NCBI GenBank assembly: GCA_944392205.1
Contig: CALXVV010000041.1
Span: forward strand, 1 to 63,191
Origin: an uncultured Alphaproteobacteria bacterium
GTDB taxonomy: Bacteria; Pseudomonadota; Alphaproteobacteria; RF32; CAG-239
Direction of reading: 5' to 3'
DNA: 63,191 nt
Position 1 is the stretch's first letter; each line of letters begins with the position of its first letter. Positions 6,590 through 48,362 of this stretch are shown here, in pieces. The notes beneath the pieces are model-generated. The model was not told the DNA's origin. It did no database searches and worked only from the letters and a program-made list of their open reading frames with translations. A program made the translations under genes and the position numbers.

Positions 6590-7114
6590 TTAATCGCTTG
6601 CTGTCTGTATTTCCAGAGATTTAATGTTTAAGTTGTTTATTTTAATAGGGGCTGTCGCCAAATTTAGGCGATATAAAAGCTCTTCTTTTAGCCAATAAAG
6701 GCCGGTTGATCCTTGTACTTCTTCCGGAGTAAGTTCAATGATGTGCGTTAAAACAACATCATTTATTTTGGGGAGAAGAAGTTCTATTGTCTTGATGTCT
6801 TCAACATTGGATAGTTCTAAGTTGAGACGTATGTGCAAAGTTTGTTTATCTGGCCCTTCCGTGTGCAAATTGGCGGTAAGTTCGGGGAGATCATAAAATA
6901 CGGTAATGCTACCTTCTCCCTCACCACTTTTTTGGACAACACTGTAGGTTGCCGGGGTTGTGTGGTAGTCCCGATTAAAGGCATAGTATAAACCCACAGA
7001 CAGGCCGACAACTATCAACACCGGCAAAAGAAATATCAGCATCTTTTTGCGGCTTAGTTGTTTGGGCTGATTGACTTCATCTTCATTGTCTATATCATCT
7101 TCCTGGTCGAGCAT
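6590..7114 (-). CDS. fliL: Flagellar basal body-associated protein FliL
   Basis: A 174-residue inner-membrane protein: cytoplasmic acidic and basic N-terminus, one membrane segment (about residues 26-47), and a periplasmic domain with the FliL pattern YDLPELTANLHT near residues 93-104. FliL surrounds or stabilises stator units at the flagellar motor. The ATG at 7114 has a strong GGAGG. It is the first gene of the minus-strand flagellar operon; the 240-base gap to the divergent pilus-like genes probably carries promoters for both directions. Confidence 0.92.
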   Translation of the reverse strand: MLDQEDDIDNEDEVNQPKQLSRKKMLIFLLPVLIVVGLSVGLYYAFNRDYHTTPATYSVVQKSGEGEGSITVFYDLPELTANLHTEGPDKQTLHIRLNLELSNVEDIKTIELLLPKINDVVLTHIIELTPEEVQGSTGLYWLKEELLYRLNLATAPIKINNLNIKSLEIQTASD

Positions 7115-7345
7115 GAAACCTCCGGAGTGTTATCGCTTCCAGTTTTATTTTCCTATACTATAACATTAAAATTTATAATTAAACGTAAATTTCTTAGTTA
7201 TGCAAAGCTTAGCTGTCGCTTTTTTATAAAATGACAAATTGTCTTTTGCCTTTTGTTGCAGATTTGTGAATTTTAATAAATTTTGCTTGTATTTAATAGA
7301 TTAGAAACCTTTTTTGTGGTAAACTTGTACGTATATGGAATAATT

Positions 7346-7353
7346 GGAGGAGG
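7346..7353 (+). promoter_or_regulatory. Shine-Dalgarno GGAGGAGG that fixes a GTG start
   Basis: The purine-rich GGAGGAGG lies 5 bases before GTG at 7359. An upstream in-frame TTG at 7344 overlaps this ribosome site, so it is unlikely to be the true start. Confidence 0.7.
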
Positions 7354-7358
7354 CCCTG

Positions 7359-8045
7359 GTGTATATCTGGGTGATTTTGGCTACATTCTTGGCTATATTG
7401 GCGTCTTACACGCTGTCTGTGCGTCCGGACATGCGGGAGTTGTCTGTTGCCAGAATGGCCGAAGCTGCGTTGGGACGCCTTGTCGTTCAGCATGAGGCCG
7501 CTCTTAATTATGTAAAATACAACAAATATCCGTATTCTGCCAGCAGAGATAAGGTCGATTATGCTCCGGGAATTATTAGTGATGGGGATTTATTGGCTGA
7601 AATGCCTTATGGACATTCTTTGGATGGACAATATACCAGTAAAATCTTTTGTATGAACCAAGATATGACCGTGGCTTTTGGTAATGCCGGGGCGGAGAAT
7701 CCTTGCGATGTCGCTGATAATCGAAAAATGGTGGTAACCTATGGGCCGATACCGACGCGTTGGTTGAGCTTGTCTTCAGCCATGGAGCGGCCTAATACCG
7801 ATTTTTTGAATGCCCTTTGGAATATGGTAAGCTCAGGAGAGGAATTTGGTTATATGTTACCTGCTTTGGCATCAGACGTCCATGTCAGTGTAGAAAATCC
7901 ATCTGCATCCAATGTGCAGTTGGCAACAAGGCCGGGGGCTGAACTCGTCTTTGTTCCTAAGGCTGTGGTCGAAGATGCTGATTTTAAATCAGTCTGCGAT
8001 TTAGAGGAAAATTTTGTTTGTTTGGTTTATATGAGCGGAATTTAA
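7359..8045 (+). CDS. Single-pass envelope protein paired with the PilV-like gene (possibly PilM-like)
   Basis: About 228 residues. The N-terminus is a membrane segment (VYIWVILATFLAILASYTLS) with almost no leader, followed by a globular domain with cysteines near KIFCMNQ, NPCDVAD, KSVCDLEE and NFVCLVY, suitable for periplasmic disulfides. It lies 21 bases before the prepilin-like PilV protein, so the two are probably one operon. In IncI-type thin pili, pilV is preceded by small pilus genes such as pilM with a similar single-anchor layout. The resemblance here is architectural only and the family is unproven. Confidence 0.6.
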   Translation: MYIWVILATFLAILASYTLSVRPDMRELSVARMAEAALGRLVVQHEAALNYVKYNKYPYSASRDKVDYAPGIISDGDLLAEMPYGHSLDGQYTSKIFCMNQDMTVAFGNAGAENPCDVADNRKMVVTYGPIPTRWLSLSSAMERPNTDFLNALWNMVSSGEEFGYMLPALASDVHVSVENPSASNVQLATRPGAELVFVPKAVVEDADFKSVCDLEENFVCLVYMSGI

Positions 8046-8066
8046 CAAGATTTTGGGAGAAAACTC

Positions 8067-11000
8067 ATGATAAAGAATTGGAACTTTTTATCTCAGAAAG
8101 GTAGCATGATGGTGGAAGCCTTGGCTATGCTGGGATTGATTACGATGGTTACTCCTGTCTTGTACAAAAAGGCTGCCGAACGAACAACCGAGTTGCAGGA
8201 TATTAATACCGCAACTCAGATGCGAACCCTTTCTAAGGCTTTAGATGATTTTATTGGCGATAACTACAATGATTTGGCAGAAGGTCCCGATGGTGAACAG
8301 GAAATCGATAAGGCTGATATCGAACCTTATTTGCCTTATAACTTCAATGTCGACAGTTCCAGATTGTTTGATGATATTCAGTTCGCTATTCGTAATGAGA
8401 AAATTAATGCCGGTACGGAAAAAGAGCACTCCGCCATTACCGGTGTTGTTTTGGCTAAGGCAGCAGATGAAATTCCGATGATACGCGCTTCCAAAATAGC
8501 TTCTATGGTCGGTGCTAACGGTGGTGTTGTTCGCTCCAAGGAAATACAAGGTGTGCAAGGCGGATGGGATGCCCCTCTTAGCGATTTCTTTTCCTCTGAT
8601 GATGTTCCGGACGGAAGCCTTGCAACTTCTTCCGTGCACGCCGTAACGGCTTCAGGCGGTGGTGGCGGCGGTGCCGATTCTAAGCATGTGTTATATAGAG
8701 ATACCAGCAAGGGTGATCTGATGTATAATACAATGGAGACAACCCTTTACATGGGAGGGGAGAATCTGGCCGATGTCAGCAAAATCGTGGCGGCGACAGA
8801 GGCCGGACGTGACGGAACAGAGGCCGGAGCTGTTACTGTCGATGGCAAACTTATCTCCACAGGTGATTTGGATGTCGGCGGCGGAGCTTCTGTGAGTGGT
8901 TCGCTTTCTGCTAATACGGCCAGTATAACCGGCGATTTAACTGCCGGTGCCACAACGGTTGGCAGTTTGATCTCTAATGGTATTGCTAATATTGCCGGTT
9001 TATTGACGGCCGGTGCCGGCGTTACGGTTTCTGCCGGTGGTGTATCTGTAGAGGGAGGCGATGTTACGGTTTCTGCCGGTAAACTGAAGGCTCAGGGTGG
9101 GGCTATCGTTTCTGGAAATAGTGGTGAAAATGATACGGCAAATTCTGAATATGCCTTAGTTAGTGATGGAAACTTGTTGGTTAGGAACAATGCCCATGTT
9201 GTTGGCAGTATGAAAATTGATACTGATTTGGTTGCAAATAACTTGTTTGGAGAAAATTCTATCGGCGGTGGTTCACTGGGAGACGGGAATTATAATTTCC
9301 TTGCCAATGCTTCTCAGGTTTCTGTGGCCGGGAACAATTTGCTGGTAGGAAATAGCGTTGATCCGAGATTGTACACGACCGATACATCTGTTCAGGCCGG
9401 GGTTGGCTCTGCCCAAATGTTGATTGATTCTGGTACGGCTTCTTTGGAAACATCCGGAAGTAGTGTTTGGGTTGATAGTCAGGGTAATGCGGCTTTGCAG
9501 GGAACCGGACAGGTCGATGTTAGGGTAGCTGACAACGATGGCGCATATCCTACTTATCTGACTTTGGATTCAGACGGCGCTGAGTTAACCGGAAATAATG
9601 TTACTGCCAACGCCGGTAATGCCAAGCTGGCTTTGGCCGATGGTAATGTTCGCCTGGGCTTGATTACAACCTCAACAAATGCTGACGGGACCTCTACTAC
9701 AGGGTATGGAGCTAATCTTCATCTAGCTTCTGATGGCGCTGTTCTGACGGGAACCGGTGGCGGTGTGTTGCAGCCGGAGGTTTCTTTGACAAACGGAGAT
9801 GTTGATATTCAAGGTAGCGTTCTCTCGGTTAATACGGATAATCTGCAGGTGGATGCCGATAATATCGTTTTTGATGAAAATGCCGAAATTCCAGAAGATG
9901 GTGACGAACGCATTAATCGTTCTTCCGGTATCAGAATTAGTCGTGAAGGTATTATCCAGTTGCCGGCTGCTTCAAGTGTCGTTTCCGGCGCGTCTCGTAG
10001 CGATCTTTCTACAACGGCAGGGCAGCAAGATGTTGCCGGTTATATTAAGCTGGACAGAATATTGGCTAACGAGGCTTATCCGACTGATCTCGGAACAGGT
10101 GCTTATCCGTTGCATGCAAATGCCTCCGGAAATACGACATCCAAAGGCTATGATGCTTATCAGGTTAACCCGGCTTATACGTCTGTAATGCATGATATTA
10201 AACTAGTCACTCGCGGCGGAGCCAGATTGAGCGATATTTTGCCGGACTTTATCAATAAGGGTATTTATGTGTTGGATAATACTTATCAGGAGGAAACAGG
10301 AAAAACCTCTTGGGAAACATATCAAGTTTCTGTTGGGTCTCAGGTTACTGTTAGCGGAGCTCCCGGAGAATGTACATCTTCAAACTGTATAGCTTCTCCA
10401 TGGCTGGGGTTTGTGCCAACACCGCAGTGTCCTCCCGGGTATTCTAAAGTTATTACCATTAATCCAATCCGTTGGAAAATGGCTGAGGCTTATTATATCC
10501 CGAGCGAAAAACCGGTTAGTGGAGATGTTTCTGATATGTTCAGAAGTTACTTTCTGGTGCCGAGAGACCCGACGACGGCTTCTTTCCAGTTGGCTGAAGC
10601 TGATGGTTCGGCTGGTTCCCATACGCACCAATTATTGGAAGAAAAAGGATTCCCGTTGACTTTTCAGACCAATACCTGGCTCAATACTACTGTTAGTGGT
10701 GTGAAGGGCAATGGTGAAACGGCTGAAAGTTCAGGAGATCAAGGTCCCGGACGTTATGAAACATTTGTGGGGTGGCATGCAATTATGGGTTTCTTGTACT
10801 ATGCTCAAGACTATGAGGCATATCTGAAGGCTTTGGGGCAGGCTAGTTTGGCGACACAGAATGTGGTGGTATGGAATCTGTTCCCCGTTTACAATGAAGA
10901 AATGACGGCCATTGCAAATGTCTACTGTTATTTTGAACGGCGTAACATTGATGAGGCACCGGCTTGGAAGTGGAATAGCAACTTTGTAGATACCGGGTAT

Positions 11001-11099
11001 GACCAATTAACCAACTTTAGATTTGGTTTTGAGAAAAATAATTCAGAGTATAATGAGAGGCTGAATGATCCGGCCCTTGGGTATGATGAAGTTTGGTAA
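8067..11099 (+). CDS. Giant prepilin-like adhesin with PilV/shufflon-type N-terminus
   Basis: A 1010-residue protein. The first 12 residues end in KG and are followed by SMMVEALAMLGLI, a type IV prepilin cleavage site with the conserved glutamate at +5 and a hydrophobic stalk. The next region (IGDNYNDL, GVVLAKAADEIPMI, then ASMVGANGGVV) follows the layout I know from the Shufflon_N domain of IncI PilV minor pilins. After a Gly-rich linker (around residue 195) come about 450 residues of Gly/Ala/Ser/Thr/Val-rich beta repeats, then a C-terminal domain with CPPGYSKV, GSHTHQ and a cysteine near the end (VYCYF). The likely role is a pilus-tip adhesin exported by a type IV machinery not in this window. 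No shufflon recombination sites were seen. The ATG at 8067 has GGGAG upstream. Confidence 0.72.
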   Translation: MIKNWNFLSQKGSMMVEALAMLGLITMVTPVLYKKAAERTTELQDINTATQMRTLSKALDDFIGDNYNDLAEGPDGEQEIDKADIEPYLPYNFNVDSSRLFDDIQFAIRNEKINAGTEKEHSAITGVVLAKAADEIPMIRASKIASMVGANGGVVRSKEIQGVQGGWDAPLSDFFSSDDVPDGSLATSSVHAVTASGGGGGGADSKHVLYRDTSKGDLMYNTMETTLYMGGENLADVSKIVAATEAGRDGTEAGAVTVDGKLISTGDLDVGGGASVSGSLSANTASITGDLTAGATTVGSLISNGIANIAGLLTAGAGVTVSAGGVSVEGGDVTVSAGKLKAQGGAIVSGNSGENDTANSEYALVSDGNLLVRNNAHVVGSMKIDTDLVANNLFGENSIGGGSLGDGNYNFLANASQVSVAGNNLLVGNSVDPRLYTTDTSVQAGVGSAQMLIDSGTASLETSGSSVWVDSQGNAALQGTGQVDVRVADNDGAYPTYLTLDSDGAELTGNNVTANAGNAKLALADGNVRLGLITTSTNADGTSTTGYGANLHLASDGAVLTGTGGGVLQPEVSLTNGDVDIQGSVLSVNTDNLQVDADNIVFDENAEIPEDGDERINRSSGIRISREGIIQLPAASSVVSGASRSDLSTTAGQQDVAGYIKLDRILANEAYPTDLGTGAYPLHANASGNTTSKGYDAYQVNPAYTSVMHDIKLVTRGGARLSDILPDFINKGIYVLDNTYQEETGKTSWETYQVSVGSQVTVSGAPGECTSSNCIASPWLGFVPTPQCPPGYSKVITINPIRWKMAEAYYIPSEKPVSGDVSDMFRSYFLVPRDPTTASFQLAEADGSAGSHTHQLLEEKGFPLTFQTNTWLNTTVSGVKGNGETAESSGDQGPGRYETFVGWHAIMGFLYYAQDYEAYLKALGQASLATQNVVVWNLFPVYNEEMTAIANVYCYFERRNIDEAPAWKWNSNFVDTGYDQLTNFRFGFEKNNSEYNERLNDPALGYDEVW

Positions 11100-11100
11100 A

Positions 11101-11130
11101 ACAAAGGCCCCGATTTATCGGGGCCTTTGT
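11101..11130. terminator. Bidirectional terminator between the adhesin gene and fliP
   Basis: A perfect inverted repeat, ACAAAGGCCCCGA against TCGGGGCCTTTGT, lies 2 bases after the adhesin stop and 4 bases from the stop of fliP on the other strand. It can serve both convergent transcripts. Confidence 0.85.
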
Positions 11131-11133
11131 TCG

Positions 11134-11877
11134 CTATTTGAAACTGTTTATCAGGCTGCCTGCCAATAAATACCAGCCATCTACGAGCACAAAAAATATG
11201 ACCTTAAACGGCAAAGCCAGAACGGTTGGCGGTAACATCATCATACCCATGGACATTAAGACCGAGGCTATGACCATGTCGATGATTAAGAACGGCACAA
11301 ATATCAGAAAACCAATTTCAAATGCCCGGCGGAGTTCACTGATCATAAACGCGGGAATCGCTACTTTCAGGGGTGTTTCTTCGATGCTTTCGGCCGGCTT
11401 CTCACCACTTAAGTCACTAAAAAGCAGTAAGTCTTTTTCTCTGGTGTTCTTGACCATAAATTCTTTGATGGGGTTGGCTGCTTTTTCCAAGCCGTCCATA
11501 ACTTCTATTTTTTCATCCATCATCGGTTTGATGCCTTCTTCCCACGATTTTTCCAAAGTGGGGCTCATAATGAATAATGTCAGAAATAAAGCCAGTGAGA
11601 CCAAAACCATGTTGGGCGGAGTGGCGTTGGTGGCCAGAGCACTGCGCGTGATGGAAAATACGACGATAATACGGGTAAAAGATGTCATCATAATCAGAAT
11701 CGATGGTGCTAACGACAATACCGTGATCATCATCAGAACACTGAAAATTCTTCCCGTGGCGGTACCGCTCGGTGTGTCTCCAAGGCTGATATTCAGGCTT
11801 TGGGCAAAGGCCGGCTCAGTGCAGCAGAGTGCGGCAAAAATAAAAACTAAAATGGCTAAAAGTGATTTTTTATTCAT
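11134..11877 (-). CDS. fliP: Flagellar export apparatus protein FliP
   Basis: FliP forms the core of the flagellar type III export gate with FliQ and FliR. The 247-residue protein has a cleavable-type signal (MNKKSLLAILVF, ending near AFAQS), the membrane segment after SLAPSILIMMTSFTRIIVVFS, and the C-terminal FliP signature FLIIDMVIASVLMSMGMMMLPP. The longer frame to 11931 lacks a ribosome site at its start; the ATG at 11877 has AGGA upstream and begins at the signal. It overlaps fliO by 8 bases. Confidence 0.95.
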   Translation of the reverse strand: MNKKSLLAILVFIFAALCCTEPAFAQSLNISLGDTPSGTATGRIFSVLMMITVLSLAPSILIMMTSFTRIIVVFSITRSALATNATPPNMVLVSLALFLTLFIMSPTLEKSWEEGIKPMMDEKIEVMDGLEKAANPIKEFMVKNTREKDLLLFSDLSGEKPAESIEETPLKVAIPAFMISELRRAFEIGFLIFVPFLIIDMVIASVLMSMGMMMLPPTVLALPFKVIFFVLVDGWYLLAGSLINSFK

Positions 11878-12160
11878 CTTTTTTATCCTGGCGGGAGTTG
11901 GTTTGCAGCAACAGATTTCCGGTTTGTCCAAGCAAGATCAAATATTCAGTTTGATCAGCCCTGAGCAACACAACTTGGTTGCGAGAATCGATGGCGCGTT
12001 TTTCTAAAATATCTATTCTGCGACCGGCATTGAGATCTTTGATGAGCTTGCATTTTAGACCTTTTTGCTCGCAAAACTTAAATATCCAAAGGGTCAAAAA
12101 CAATAGGCCGATGACAAAAATCAGCGATAACAGAGCATGCAATATCTGATGCCATTCCAT
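11870..12160 (-). CDS. fliO: FliO-like flagellar biosynthesis protein
   Basis: About 96 residues with one N-terminal membrane segment (about residues 7-25) and a short cytoplasmic beta domain (GRRIDILEKRAIDSRNQVVLL), the layout of FliO, which assists FliP assembly. A longer frame starts at 12220, but the ATG at 12160 has GGGAGA upstream and begins just before the membrane segment. It overlaps fliP by 8 bases, and the position before fliP supports the call. FliO sequences are poorly conserved, so the name rests largely on context. Confidence 0.8.
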   Translation of the reverse strand: MEWHQILHALLSLIFVIGLLFLTLWIFKFCEQKGLKCKLIKDLNAGRRIDILEKRAIDSRNQVVLLRADQTEYLILLGQTGNLLLQTNSRQDKKDE

Positions 12161-18670: not shown

Positions 18671-19375
18671 TTATTTTATTTTGTATAAAGCCCATCCAAG
18701 ACGGATACCTCCGTAGAAATGTCCCCACTCACGATCCAACGGTCCGTCGATCTTGTAGACCTTGGTTCCATTGGAGTGGAATGTTCCGGTTGGCATCTCT
18801 TTTCCCCAGCTGGGAGTTAAGCGACAGCCACCGTAGAATTCCACGTAGAGCCGAGGCTCTTTCCGTGAGGGCTTCCACTTCAGGTCAAACTCTGCGATTG
18901 CAGAGAAGGCCATTCTGGGGCAAGCCAGAGCAAGTTTTACACCCTGAGGCTTTTCCGGATCGGTTGATGCTCCGCACCACATATCCTGCTCACTAGCTCC
19001 TACACCCAATTTGAGAGCAGGAATGAACAAAGAGGCAGCGTGGTAGCGACCGAGGTTCTGCTTGGCATATGCTTCCACAGCGAAACGGTTACCCGCTTCA
19101 AGCTGTCCGCCAAACTCAAACCCTCCGTTTCGCCCCAACTGGTAGCCCAGAGAGGCTGTGCCGTTCACATCTTTTCCATAGCTTGCGCCGACGGTGATAT
19201 GAAGGCCGCGAAATCCGTTTTCAACCTGGGGAGCTACGGTTTTTACACCTTTGTGGCTCTCTTTGGTCTCTTTCACGAGATTGTTGTACTCTGCGTCAGA
19301 GACTAGGTTTATGTTCTGGCTGTATCCGGTTACTGCTGCAAACATGAGTGCTGCAGCAAAAATGAGTTTTTTCAT
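18671..19375 (-). CDS. Outer-membrane beta-barrel-like protein of Bacteroidota type
   Basis: A 234-residue protein with signal peptide MKKLIFAAALMFAAVTGYSQ, a Bacteroidota-like ending, then glycine- and aromatic-rich beta strands (YVEFYGGCRL, HFYGGIRLGWALYKIK). I do not know the family. A longer frame begins at 19456, overlapping the stop of the upstream lipoprotein gene, but a stem-loop (19393-19441) and the leader AAAAAACCCAAAAAA lie directly before the ATG at 19375, so this start is preferred. There is no Shine-Dalgarno sequence, unlike the core genes around it. It is probably of foreign origin. Confidence 0.7.
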   Translation of the reverse strand: MKKLIFAAALMFAAVTGYSQNINLVSDAEYNNLVKETKESHKGVKTVAPQVENGFRGLHITVGASYGKDVNGTASLGYQLGRNGGFEFGGQLEAGNRFAVEAYAKQNLGRYHAASLFIPALKLGVGASEQDMWCGASTDPEKPQGVKLALACPRMAFSAIAEFDLKWKPSRKEPRLYVEFYGGCRLTPSWGKEMPTGTFHSNGTKVYKIDGPLDREWGHFYGGIRLGWALYKIK

Positions 19376-19392
19376 TTTTTTGGGTTTTTTAT

Positions 19393-19441
19393 GCCCCAAC
19401 CATTCGCTTTTGACAATGACGTCTGAGCTAGCGGTTGGGGC
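19393..19441 (-). promoter_or_regulatory. Stem-loop between the two imported genes
   Basis: GCCCCAACC (19393-19401) and GGTTGGGGC (19433-19441) are perfect inverted repeats, with CGCT/AGCG adding inner pairs. On the minus strand it is followed by ATAAAAAACCC. It may act as a partial terminator or an mRNA processing site between the lipoprotein gene and the barrel gene. Confidence 0.5.
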
Positions 19442-19455
19442 GGGTGATTGATTCA

Positions 19456-21438
19456 TTATTTCAAAATTAATTTCGAGTTGTTTGCCAGCTCGAAAGTGGT
19501 CGTTTCGTCCTCACTGTCATAAACACCACTTCCCTGGTAGGGGTTGCGGAGCTTGGCAGTGGTCGACGTCGAAACGGCCGAAACGGCAGTGTAGTACGTG
19601 TGGTCGATTGTGTAGTACGTGTACACGTTCTCCTCAATCAACACGCTTCCTGCAACAAATGTTCCGTTTTTATACACCATTGCCAGGGGCATGGTCGGCA
19701 GGTTCTTACCGCTCGTGTTCTCGCGATAAATCTCAGCACCCGTGGTTTCGTCATAAGCGACGAAAAGGGTGTTATTCTTATCGGTGAGTGACTCAAACCA
19801 TGCGCAGATCGGGGTTGCATTCCAATCCGTGCGGTTCGAATCATAACGGTCAGTCTGGTCTGCGCGGACCAGCTTGTAGCCTTCAATGGTGTAGGGCACT
19901 ACGGCCTTCTTCAGCGTGATGACAGTCTCGTCCGAAGACTTCACAGCATTACGCGAAGCGGTGTAGTTGAGAGTGTAGGGACGCGTCTTGTAGACGTTGT
20001 CCGTGGTTACGTTGCCTGCAACAGGAGCTGTACCAGAAACGGCGACCTCAGACATTTCTACGCCATACTCATGACCGTTGTATACGACAACAAAGTTATC
20101 GTTCTTGGTCACTTTCACGGTATTGCTGATACCGTTCGTATAGTAGAACACATCCTGACGGCTGAACGACGTGAATTTTACATTGTTTACCGTCGAGGTT
20201 TTCGTTTCTGTCCAGTTTCCAGGGTTGTTAACATGCGAGCTGAGTTCAAGGGTCTCAACGATCTTCGTCTGATCTTCTCCAGCGACGAGCGAAATTCCCG
20301 AAGGAGCCGTGAACCGGATATCCTCCTTCTCGTGAAGAATGATATAAACGATTCCGTTCTCCTCCTTTTCAAACTCTGCGTATACACGCAGGGTCTGACG
20401 GATTTCCTTCGTATCAGCAGCCATATCGATATTGTCACAAACCAGCTTGAAGTAAGCCGTGTTCAGGATATCAATATTCTCGGCCGAGTTGTCGACAACC
20501 TTAATATCACCATTGCTGGTGACATAGAGGTCATCATAGATGACGCGAGCCGTGTGGGCCGAACCTTCGTCTTCAAACGATACGGTAGCCGGCATGTCCA
20601 CGCTAGCCGTGAAGCTAACGATGTTCATGACAACATTTGCCGTGCCGTTGGTGACGTTGGCGTCAGCGCCGTAGGCCAGCTGAGTGAGTTCCTCCGCATC
20701 CTCAATGCCTCCACACTCCAGAGTTGCGTGATAGGCAACTCTGATAGGTGAGGTTTCTACCACAGAGCCGTTTACCTTGATGGTTTTAATTATCTCAACC
20801 TCATCGGCCGAGATAATCGTGGCATCACTGTATTCCACCGTGCGAACGTCGTTCTCAACTATTGAAATCTCAACGGGATATTCAAAGCTTTCACGGTCAG
20901 AGATAACCATGTCTGCATAAAGAATGTTCCCGCTGATATTTTTGATCTTGAGCACACTCGGCTGCGGGGTGCAGCAAGTGAGTGCAGCAACGGCTCCATC
21001 TTCAACGAATTTTGAGTGGCAGTAAGTTTTGCCATTCTCGTTGAAGTATACCTTGTCACAATTCTGCAGGGTGACCGTAGCCACCATCATGGTGCCGGCA
21101 AGGTCAAATTTACCATCAACATAGCTGATGGTGGAGTTCTGCAGCTCTTCAGCGATTGCTCGCTTCAGAGTCACTTCACTCACATTGATCTTGTGCTCAG
21201 CAACGTAGGCATGACGCTCGATTTCCTCGTCATTCTTCAGGAGAATCGCGTCGTGGTCGTCCAGGACCTTGCTACCAGCCAACTCGGCACCAACGTGCTC
21301 GGTGATGAGCTCGTAGGTGTCCGGATCTGGGGTAGGTGTACCACCATTGTCCCAACCCTCTGCAATGATGTCCTTCTCGCAAGAAGCGAAACCTAAAGTC
21401 ATGGCGATCATCATCGTAACAAAAATGAGATTTTTCAT
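19456..21438 (-). CDS. Large Bacteroidota-type surface lipoprotein of unknown function
   Basis: A 660-residue protein with a lipoprotein signal (LGFASC, lipidated Cys at residue 20) followed at once by acidic EKD. This resembles the Bacteroidota lipoprotein export signal that sends lipoproteins to the cell surface. A Thr/Pro linker (GTPTPDPD) leads to several hundred residues of beta-sandwich-like repeats, with similar strand patterns recurring (for example FTSFSRQDVFYY and TRPYTLNYTASRNAV). No enzymatic motif is seen. The ATG at 21438 lies behind an AT-rich leader without a Shine-Dalgarno sequence. Codon use (many GCC, ACC, AAC, GTC) differs from the neighbouring core genes. Confidence 0.75.
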   Translation of the reverse strand: MKNLIFVTMMIAMTLGFASCEKDIIAEGWDNGGTPTPDPDTYELITEHVGAELAGSKVLDDHDAILLKNDEEIERHAYVAEHKINVSEVTLKRAIAEELQNSTISYVDGKFDLAGTMMVATVTLQNCDKVYFNENGKTYCHSKFVEDGAVAALTCCTPQPSVLKIKNISGNILYADMVISDRESFEYPVEISIVENDVRTVEYSDATIISADEVEIIKTIKVNGSVVETSPIRVAYHATLECGGIEDAEELTQLAYGADANVTNGTANVVMNIVSFTASVDMPATVSFEDEGSAHTARVIYDDLYVTSNGDIKVVDNSAENIDILNTAYFKLVCDNIDMAADTKEIRQTLRVYAEFEKEENGIVYIILHEKEDIRFTAPSGISLVAGEDQTKIVETLELSSHVNNPGNWTETKTSTVNNVKFTSFSRQDVFYYTNGISNTVKVTKNDNFVVVYNGHEYGVEMSEVAVSGTAPVAGNVTTDNVYKTRPYTLNYTASRNAVKSSDETVITLKKAVVPYTIEGYKLVRADQTDRYDSNRTDWNATPICAWFESLTDKNNTLFVAYDETTGAEIYRENTSGKNLPTMPLAMVYKNGTFVAGSVLIEENVYTYYTIDHTYYTAVSAVSTSTTAKLRNPYQGSGVYDSEDETTTFELANNSKLILK

Positions 21439-47855: not shown

Positions 47856-48362
47856 ATGAATACTAAACAAATGAAAACTGATTTTATGAAATATAGGGGA
47901 AGAATGATGAATGGTGAGGCCAACCCTATAGATGTCTATGTGGGAAATCGTCTCAGATTGCGCCGAGAAATGCTGAAAATTTCACAAGCCAAGCTGGCTT
48001 TATTGTTGGGTGTTACCTTCCAGCAAATCCAAAAATATGAAAAAGGCACCAACCGGATGGGCGCAAGCCGTATTTGGGATATGGCTTCAGTTCTGAAAGT
48101 GCCCGTTAATTACTTCTATGAAGGAATTGATGAAAAGCTTGATAAATATAGTCCTCGCAGGCTTTATGGAATTAATAATGAAGCCGTTGCAATCAACCCA
48201 GAATCTGATCCACTGTTTAAGCAAAGTAATATAGAATTGCTTATGGCTTTCGGAAAAATTAAAAATTGCAAATTACGACAATCAATTCGCAACCTGATAA
48301 TTTGCTTATCAAAAACAACGTCTTATAATTCAAGCGAAAGTTTGGCTAAAAATATTGATTAG
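47856..48362 (+). CDS. Xre-family helix-turn-helix regulator
   Basis: A 168-residue DNA-binding protein. The HTH region begins with the alphaproteobacterial pattern NPIDVYVGNRLRLRREML, followed by SQAKLALLLGVTFQQIQKYEKGTNRMGASRIWDMA. The C-terminal 90 residues are helical and carry no recognised ligand domain. It has GGAG before the ATG and is the only gene after the structured 47.5 kb leader, so attenuation may control it. The targets are unknown. Confidence 0.88.
   Translation: MNTKQMKTDFMKYRGRMMNGEANPIDVYVGNRLRLRREMLKISQAKLALLLGVTFQQIQKYEKGTNRMGASRIWDMASVLKVPVNYFYEGIDEKLDKYSPRRLYGINNEAVAINPESDPLFKQSNIELLMAFGKIKNCKLRQSIRNLIICLSKTTSYNSSESLAKNID

Follow-up and report, generated by a model that had tools for sequence, protein, structure and literature searches.

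In a contig of 63,191 nucleotides from an uncultured alphaproteobacterium (CALXVV010000041.1, hereafter the window, or C41), positions 7359-11099 hold two co-directional open reading frames (ORFs) of 228 and 1010 amino acids (aa), separated by 21 bp and each provided with a ribosome site. I propose, with a probability of about 0.75, that the larger gene encodes a PilV-type minor pilin that forms the tip of a chromosomal R64-type (type IVb) pilus and serves as a fixed, non-switching adhesin. An earlier note, made from the sequence without database searches, had suggested a possible new class of chromosomal pilus-tip or surface adhesin. That is too strong, because chromosomal R64-type pili with a PilV are already known, in PAPI-1 (PMC5297154) and in Burkholderia pseudomallei PilO2 (PMC3984277). 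The gene pair is real and well conserved, a variant of PilV rather than a new class.

That the 1010-aa frame is a gene and not a chance ORF follows from its being intact in relatives at 42-81% identity, with its neighbours conserved. Its product begins with the leader MIKNWNFLSQKG, 12 residues of which the last is glycine, followed by SMMVE, which puts a glutamate at +5. The earlier note had seen as much; both the Gly at -1 and the Glu at +5 prove to be invariant in 21 diverse relatives. It had also likened the N-terminus to Shufflon_N (PF04917), and the likeness holds: residues 12-256, searched alone, match that family at 28.7 bits (E 1.2e-6), above the curated cut-off of 27.5, while R64 PilV, the positive control, scores 621 bits. 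Neither the whole protein nor residues 1-200 matched PF04917 in a Pfam scan. The N-terminal domain (N-domain) does so at E <=0.1 in 12 of the 21 relatives of the alignment (best 7e-11), and in a relative from another alphaproteobacterial family at 2.8e-20. Searched against plasmids by tblastn, the whole protein found 249 records and the N-terminal 200 aa alone 148; the 25 matches listed for the whole protein are all annotated PilV, the best E among the matches listed being 2e-7. Finally, hhalign comparison of 61 members of the order with nine plasmid PilVs, that of R64 (NC_005014) included, gives a probability of 99.8 over 231 columns, still 99.4 once residues 1-65 are removed, as against 0.3-1.9 for the controls (PilS, plasmid PilM, reversed and shuffled sequences). 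The domain ends in the PilV-type motif VLYR..KGD..YNTMETTLYMGG. These three independent lines, from PF04917, tblastn and profile comparison, confirm at the level of sequence that the N-domain belongs to the PilV family.

The predicted fold is consistent with this. Of the AlphaFold2 (AF2) model, roughly residues 40-192 are confident, and the best alignments of this part are with TcpB, E. coli PilM, the TCP and CFA/III pilins and CofB. TcpB (7w63) is the top match (VIA Z 7.0, root-mean-square deviation (rmsd) 5.0, 130 residues aligned), and the first 13 matches, at Z 5-7, are all pilins, minor pilins, pseudopilins or PilM. A Z below 8 would be suggestive by itself; taken with the sequence evidence, the predicted type IVb pilin fold is firm. 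Sequence searches of the PDB with the whole protein, the N-domain and the C-terminal domain (C-domain) gave nothing credible. The sole whole-protein match in Pfam or NCBIfam, to Bactofilin, is weak (E 0.08) and lies in the stalk, and I read it as repeat similarity.

An R64-type machinery is present elsewhere in the source genome (1.38 Mb in 45 contigs, 93% complete). A second contig, C40, carries an operon in the R64 order, TcpQ-PilN-PilO-PilP-PilQ-PilR-PilS-PilS-ATPase. Its PilN matches TIGR02520 at 1e-83, just under the equivalog cut-off; PilO matches PF06864, and PilP too falls just under its cut-off. With them go a PilQ-type ATPase, a T2SSF protein of the PilR type, two PilS-type pilins, one of which has a leader of the same kind as that of pilV (G followed by RSMVE), and a PilT/TraJ-like ATPase. 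The genome's single prepilin peptidase (Peptidase_A24) is on contig C28. The earlier note reported no pilus ATPase, secretin or prepilin peptidase in view, which is right for the window and wrong for the genome; and it would have given up its reading had there been neither a match to PilV or a prepilin family nor a prepilin peptidase, when in fact there are both a Shufflon_N match and one Peptidase_A24. The genome has only one PilV-like gene, and this lies outside the pil operon, on C41 instead of C40, although a place inside the operon is not required for membership of the domain family. One might see in so isolated and solitary a gene the decaying remnant of a plasmid. The idea is scarcely credible, refuted as it is by conservation: pilV is intact in 143 of the 153 genomes of the order, with invariant residues in both the N- and C-domains. 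PilN, found in 127 of the 153, is widespread as well.

The 228-aa protein is harder to place. Its AF2 model is better, with a pLDDT (predicted local distance difference test) of 78, and of known structures it most resembles E. coli PilM (3eoi; Z 7.5, rmsd 4.3, 121 of 123 residues), the next standing at Z 5.0. Comparison with PilM (PF07419) comes out positive by fold and negative by sequence: Pfam gives no match to PF07419, either for this protein or for its relatives in other families, and hhalign against plasmid PilM reaches a probability of 14, over the transmembrane helix only, which is not significant. The gene adjoins pilV in the loci of the order long enough to judge, as pilM adjoins pilV in plasmid pKM98_p3, and as pilV2 is followed by pilM2 in PAPI-1 (PMC5297154). 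On the modelled fold I call it PilM-like. Its start is the GTG at 7359: the TTG at 7344, which is the mechanical start of the ORF, is unused by relatives, and orthologues begin at the same MYIWV.

Beyond the N-domain the 1010-aa protein is a long repetitive region and a cysteine-containing C-domain, a layout that the earlier note had described and that both the sequence and the conservation profile bear out. The middle region (about residues 241-690) is rich in Gly, Ala and Ser and has no Cys; the four cysteines of the C-terminal part are at 769, 774, 788 and 954. Over 61 relatives, conservation is confined to the N-domain and to blocks 691-750, 781-810 and 901-960 of the C-domain and does not extend to the stalk, and the stretch from MGG to P[AS]xTS varies from 384 to 698 residues in the relatives measured. 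An alignment of 22 relatives gives the C-domain motifs NPAYTSVMHDIKL..RGGARLSDILPDFINKGIY, CPPGY and YCYF. The C-domain matched nothing in Pfam, among PDB sequences or among plasmids. One of its motifs, GARLSDILP, had seemed akin to plasmid PilVs; it is absent from the nine that were checked. A shufflon PilV keeps its N-terminal region constant and switches its C-terminus (PMC9045228), and here the pattern is reversed, with a conserved C-domain and a variable stalk. Since the C-domain is conserved, it suggests one common target, and the variable stretch inside it, at about 811-900, is a candidate for fine specificity. A shufflon at pilV was considered and rejected: the inverted repeats there are not sfx-like and no space for cassettes remains before fliP, the rci recombinase not having been searched for. 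In the whole window there is a single sfx-like site with three mismatches, at 48046, which is about chance level.

What might that target be? Plasmid PilVs recognise recipients (PMC9045228), and contig C40 holds, besides the pilus operon, homologues of VirB4, VirB8 (two), VirB9-like, VirB10 and VirB11, the VirB4 being 79-88% identical across the genomes that have it. It is possible, if on the unlikely side, that the same protein tips a pilus meant for DNA uptake or purely for conjugation, recognising mates for the VirB-type system, instead of attaching the cell to surfaces. Retention across the order suggests a housekeeping use and so speaks against this. The question bears on the target and not on the mechanism. 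At the VirB-type locus near the pilus operon (C40:2704-10658) there are also two very long proteins, one of 1511 aa that ends in a VirB10/TrbI domain, the other of 1138 aa, both packed with beta-flower repeats (PF21785).

Several facts weigh against a PilV-type adhesin at a pilus tip. The AF2 model of the 1010-aa protein is mostly unreliable (mean pLDDT 36, and unreliable beyond residue 192); Foldseek found nothing significant with the models of either protein; the C-domain resembles no known adhesin; and the identity of the PilM-like protein rests on its fold. In every genome that lists both, pilV is on another contig than pilN, save in G048, where 427 kb lie between them. R64-type machinery was not detected in some other genomes of the same genus. 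Four genomes rated 100% complete (G045, G046, G049 and G055) keep pilV, pilM and the prepilin peptidase and have no PilN and no T2SSE assembly ATPase above the cut-off. In a near-complete fifth, G071, pilV and the prepilin peptidase are likewise kept where secretin and assembly ATPase are lacking.

Such genomes invite the thought that pilV and pilM act without an R64-type pilus, as a short pseudopilus or an adhesin anchored in the membrane, for which the PilT/TraJ-like ATPase would perhaps suffice, or no ATPase be needed at all. In G047, G057 and G064 that ATPase does stand alone, with unrelated genes beside it, and in G047 and G057 it is all that is retained. I consider this unlikely. The pilus and pilV co-occur in most genomes; the absences are scattered over the tree (7 changes), and G038 and G055, for example, differ although closely related; and PRT and VWA, tested genes that flank the pilus operon in others, are missing as well from G045, G046, G049, G055 and G071, as they would be with a lost contig. 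No prepilin, moreover, is known to work without an assembly ATPase. Because the absences are scattered and the flanking genes go missing along with the operon, the evidence favours drop-out of the locus from metagenome assemblies, or repeated loss. Where genomes without the operon were compared for an empty site, the flanking genes were absent or the flank was not conserved. Decidedly improbable, too, is the idea that in some species the pair has become an autonomous unit, an adhesin derived from a prepilin and carrying a new C-terminal domain, for which the prepilin peptidase would suffice, or at most that enzyme with a lone PilT-like ATPase. In G057 and G064 (L104, L110) the lone ATPase lies a few genes from flagellin genes.

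The surroundings of the pair raise one more alternative. The pilM-pilV pair stands beside fliL/fliM and/or fliP in many genera of the order, and one could imagine a surface protein associated with the flagellum. I hold this to be very unlikely: the flanking flagellar genes are on the other strand, the pair has ribosome sites of its own and a terminator-like repeat, the N-domain is of the PilV type, and other alphaproteobacterial families have pilV, often with a PilM-like gene, among non-flagellar genes. Other families of the class, here and there, have related N-domains too (34 of the 385 genomes that were drawn have them, members of the order included), and several of these have a PilM-like neighbour and no flagellar ones. 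In one such family about 11 places per genome match the PilV-type N-terminus (L127-L130 in G173, L132 in G304), and the ORFs read from them share an N-terminus and have different C-termini, as if the repertoire consisted of paralogues instead of a shufflon; the earlier note had asked for homologues of just this design. In genomes of 0.9 Mb (L135 in G508, L136 in G219) three prepilin-like genes follow one another, and the PilV N-domain profile picks out at least two of them.

If the 1010-aa protein is indeed the tip of an R64-type pilus, it may work as follows. The prepilin peptidase encoded on C28 would remove the 12-aa leader, after which the N-terminal helix would hold the cut protein in the inner membrane. 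The pilin domain would then dock with the major, PilS-type pilins, and with this the PilQ/PilR/PilN machine of C40 would begin to assemble a filament; the PilM-like protein is a putative inner-membrane helper in the process. TcpB initiates assembly of a type IVb pilus (PMC5207764), and CofB and TcpB do so as homotrimers (PMC5207764, PMC9565799); by analogy with them the PilV-like protein may form a trimer. The conserved C-domain would be carried out through the secretin by the long repeat stalk and, held at a distance from the cell, would bind its target. PilV C-termini are receptor-binding adhesins in R64/TP114 (PMC9045228) and in PAPI-1 (PMC5297154). By analogy with TcpB/CofB and plasmid PilV, the protein most likely caps the filament, starts it and carries its binding domain. 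Its target might be partner cells of the VirB-type system nearby, or else a surface of host, mucus or food. The best explanation of the R64-type pilus of this order is that it is a domesticated chromosomal pilus.

Features of the locus are collected in the table. The neighbours are flagellar, as the earlier note had it: Pfam identifies FliL and FliP, and annotation from the sequence adds FliM and a MotE-like protein. The fliP gene begins 34 bp after the pilV stop. Farther along the window, on the minus strand at 18671-21438, two genes (261 and 660 aa) have Bacteroidota-like starts (MKKLIFAAALMFAAVTGYSQ; lipoprotein ASCEKD) and no match in Pfam. Gene transfer or misassembly is possible.

Table. 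Features of the pilM-like/pilV locus and its flanks (window coordinates)
Feature	Positions	Strand	Basis and remarks
Ribosome-binding site GGAGGAGG of pilM-like gene	7346-7353	+	Read from sequence; 5 nt before the GTG
pilM-like gene, 228 aa	7359-8045	+	N-terminal hydrophobic helix without prepilin leader, then pilin-like alpha/beta domain
pilV-like gene, 1010 aa	8067-11099	+	Sequence and profile matches to PilV
Prepilin leader	8067-8102	+	Sequence; cleavage expected after Gly12; Glu +5 at 8115-8117
Pilin (Shufflon_N-like) domain, residues 13-240	8103-8786	+	PF04917, hhalign, pilin fold
Gly/Ala/Ser-rich beta-repeat stalk, residues 241-690	8787-10136	+	Conservation profile: poorly conserved, length-variable
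Conserved C-terminal domain, residues 691-1010	10137-11096	+	Alignment of 22 relatives and conservation profile
Perfect 15-bp inverted repeat, 2-nt loop; probable bidirectional terminator	11100-11131		Repeat search; between convergent pilV and fliP
fliL, conserved neighbour	6590-7114	-	PF03748 3.3e-10; synteny
fliP, conserved neighbour	11134-11931	-	PF00813 7.9e-79; synteny

Most work on R64-type pili and their PilVs has treated them as adjuncts of conjugative plasmids and islands. In the present order of alphaproteobacteria, whose genomes are small (1.0-2.0 Mb as a rule), the locus of an R64-type pilus and a giant PilV that does not switch both rank as near-core genes of the chromosome. The separation of pilV and pilM from the operon is a natural test of what a tip pilin needs from its genetic context. 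The system offers a putative fixed adhesin whose presumed binding domain is conserved throughout the order and matches no family in Pfam or the PDB, and with it a way into the question of how bacteria that are for the most part uncultured may attach.

Among known systems the closest comparison is with PilV of IncI1/IncI2 plasmids (R64, TP114; PF04917), which shares the prepilin N-terminus, the Shufflon_N pilin domain with its LYR...N.MHT.IDMG motif, a Gly-rich repeat stretch, a separate C-terminal domain, and an R64-type machinery in the cell. The differences are considerable. The nine plasmid PilVs are 420-488 aa long, in keeping with the 450 or so of the earlier note, as against 1010 aa here; the stalk, at about 450 aa, is about three times the roughly 146 aa of R64 (by my own cut); and the C-domain of about 320 aa is unrelated in sequence and conserved across the order instead of switched. 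The gene is chromosomal, has no shufflon and lies away from the pilus operon. PAPI-1 of Pseudomonas aeruginosa, a chromosomal island with an R64-type pilus, resembles it in having a single PilV encoded beside pilM on the chromosome; there, however, the pil cluster of a transferable island includes pilV2 and pilM2, whereas here the pair is a two-gene unit of its own, syntenic and surrounded by flagellar genes. PilM itself (PF07419; 3eoi, 3hg9) is likewise small, with an N-terminal hydrophobic helix, a pilin-like domain and a gene beside pilV, but it has 141-148 aa where the present family has 214-293, and the two share no significant sequence or Pfam match. TcpB of V. cholerae and CofB of enterotoxigenic E. 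coli are minor pilins in which a pilin domain is likewise followed by a large beta-rich extension, and they match the N-domain in structure. No sequence match between them and the PilV-like protein was found, and the lectin-like C-domain and the homotrimer belong to their type.

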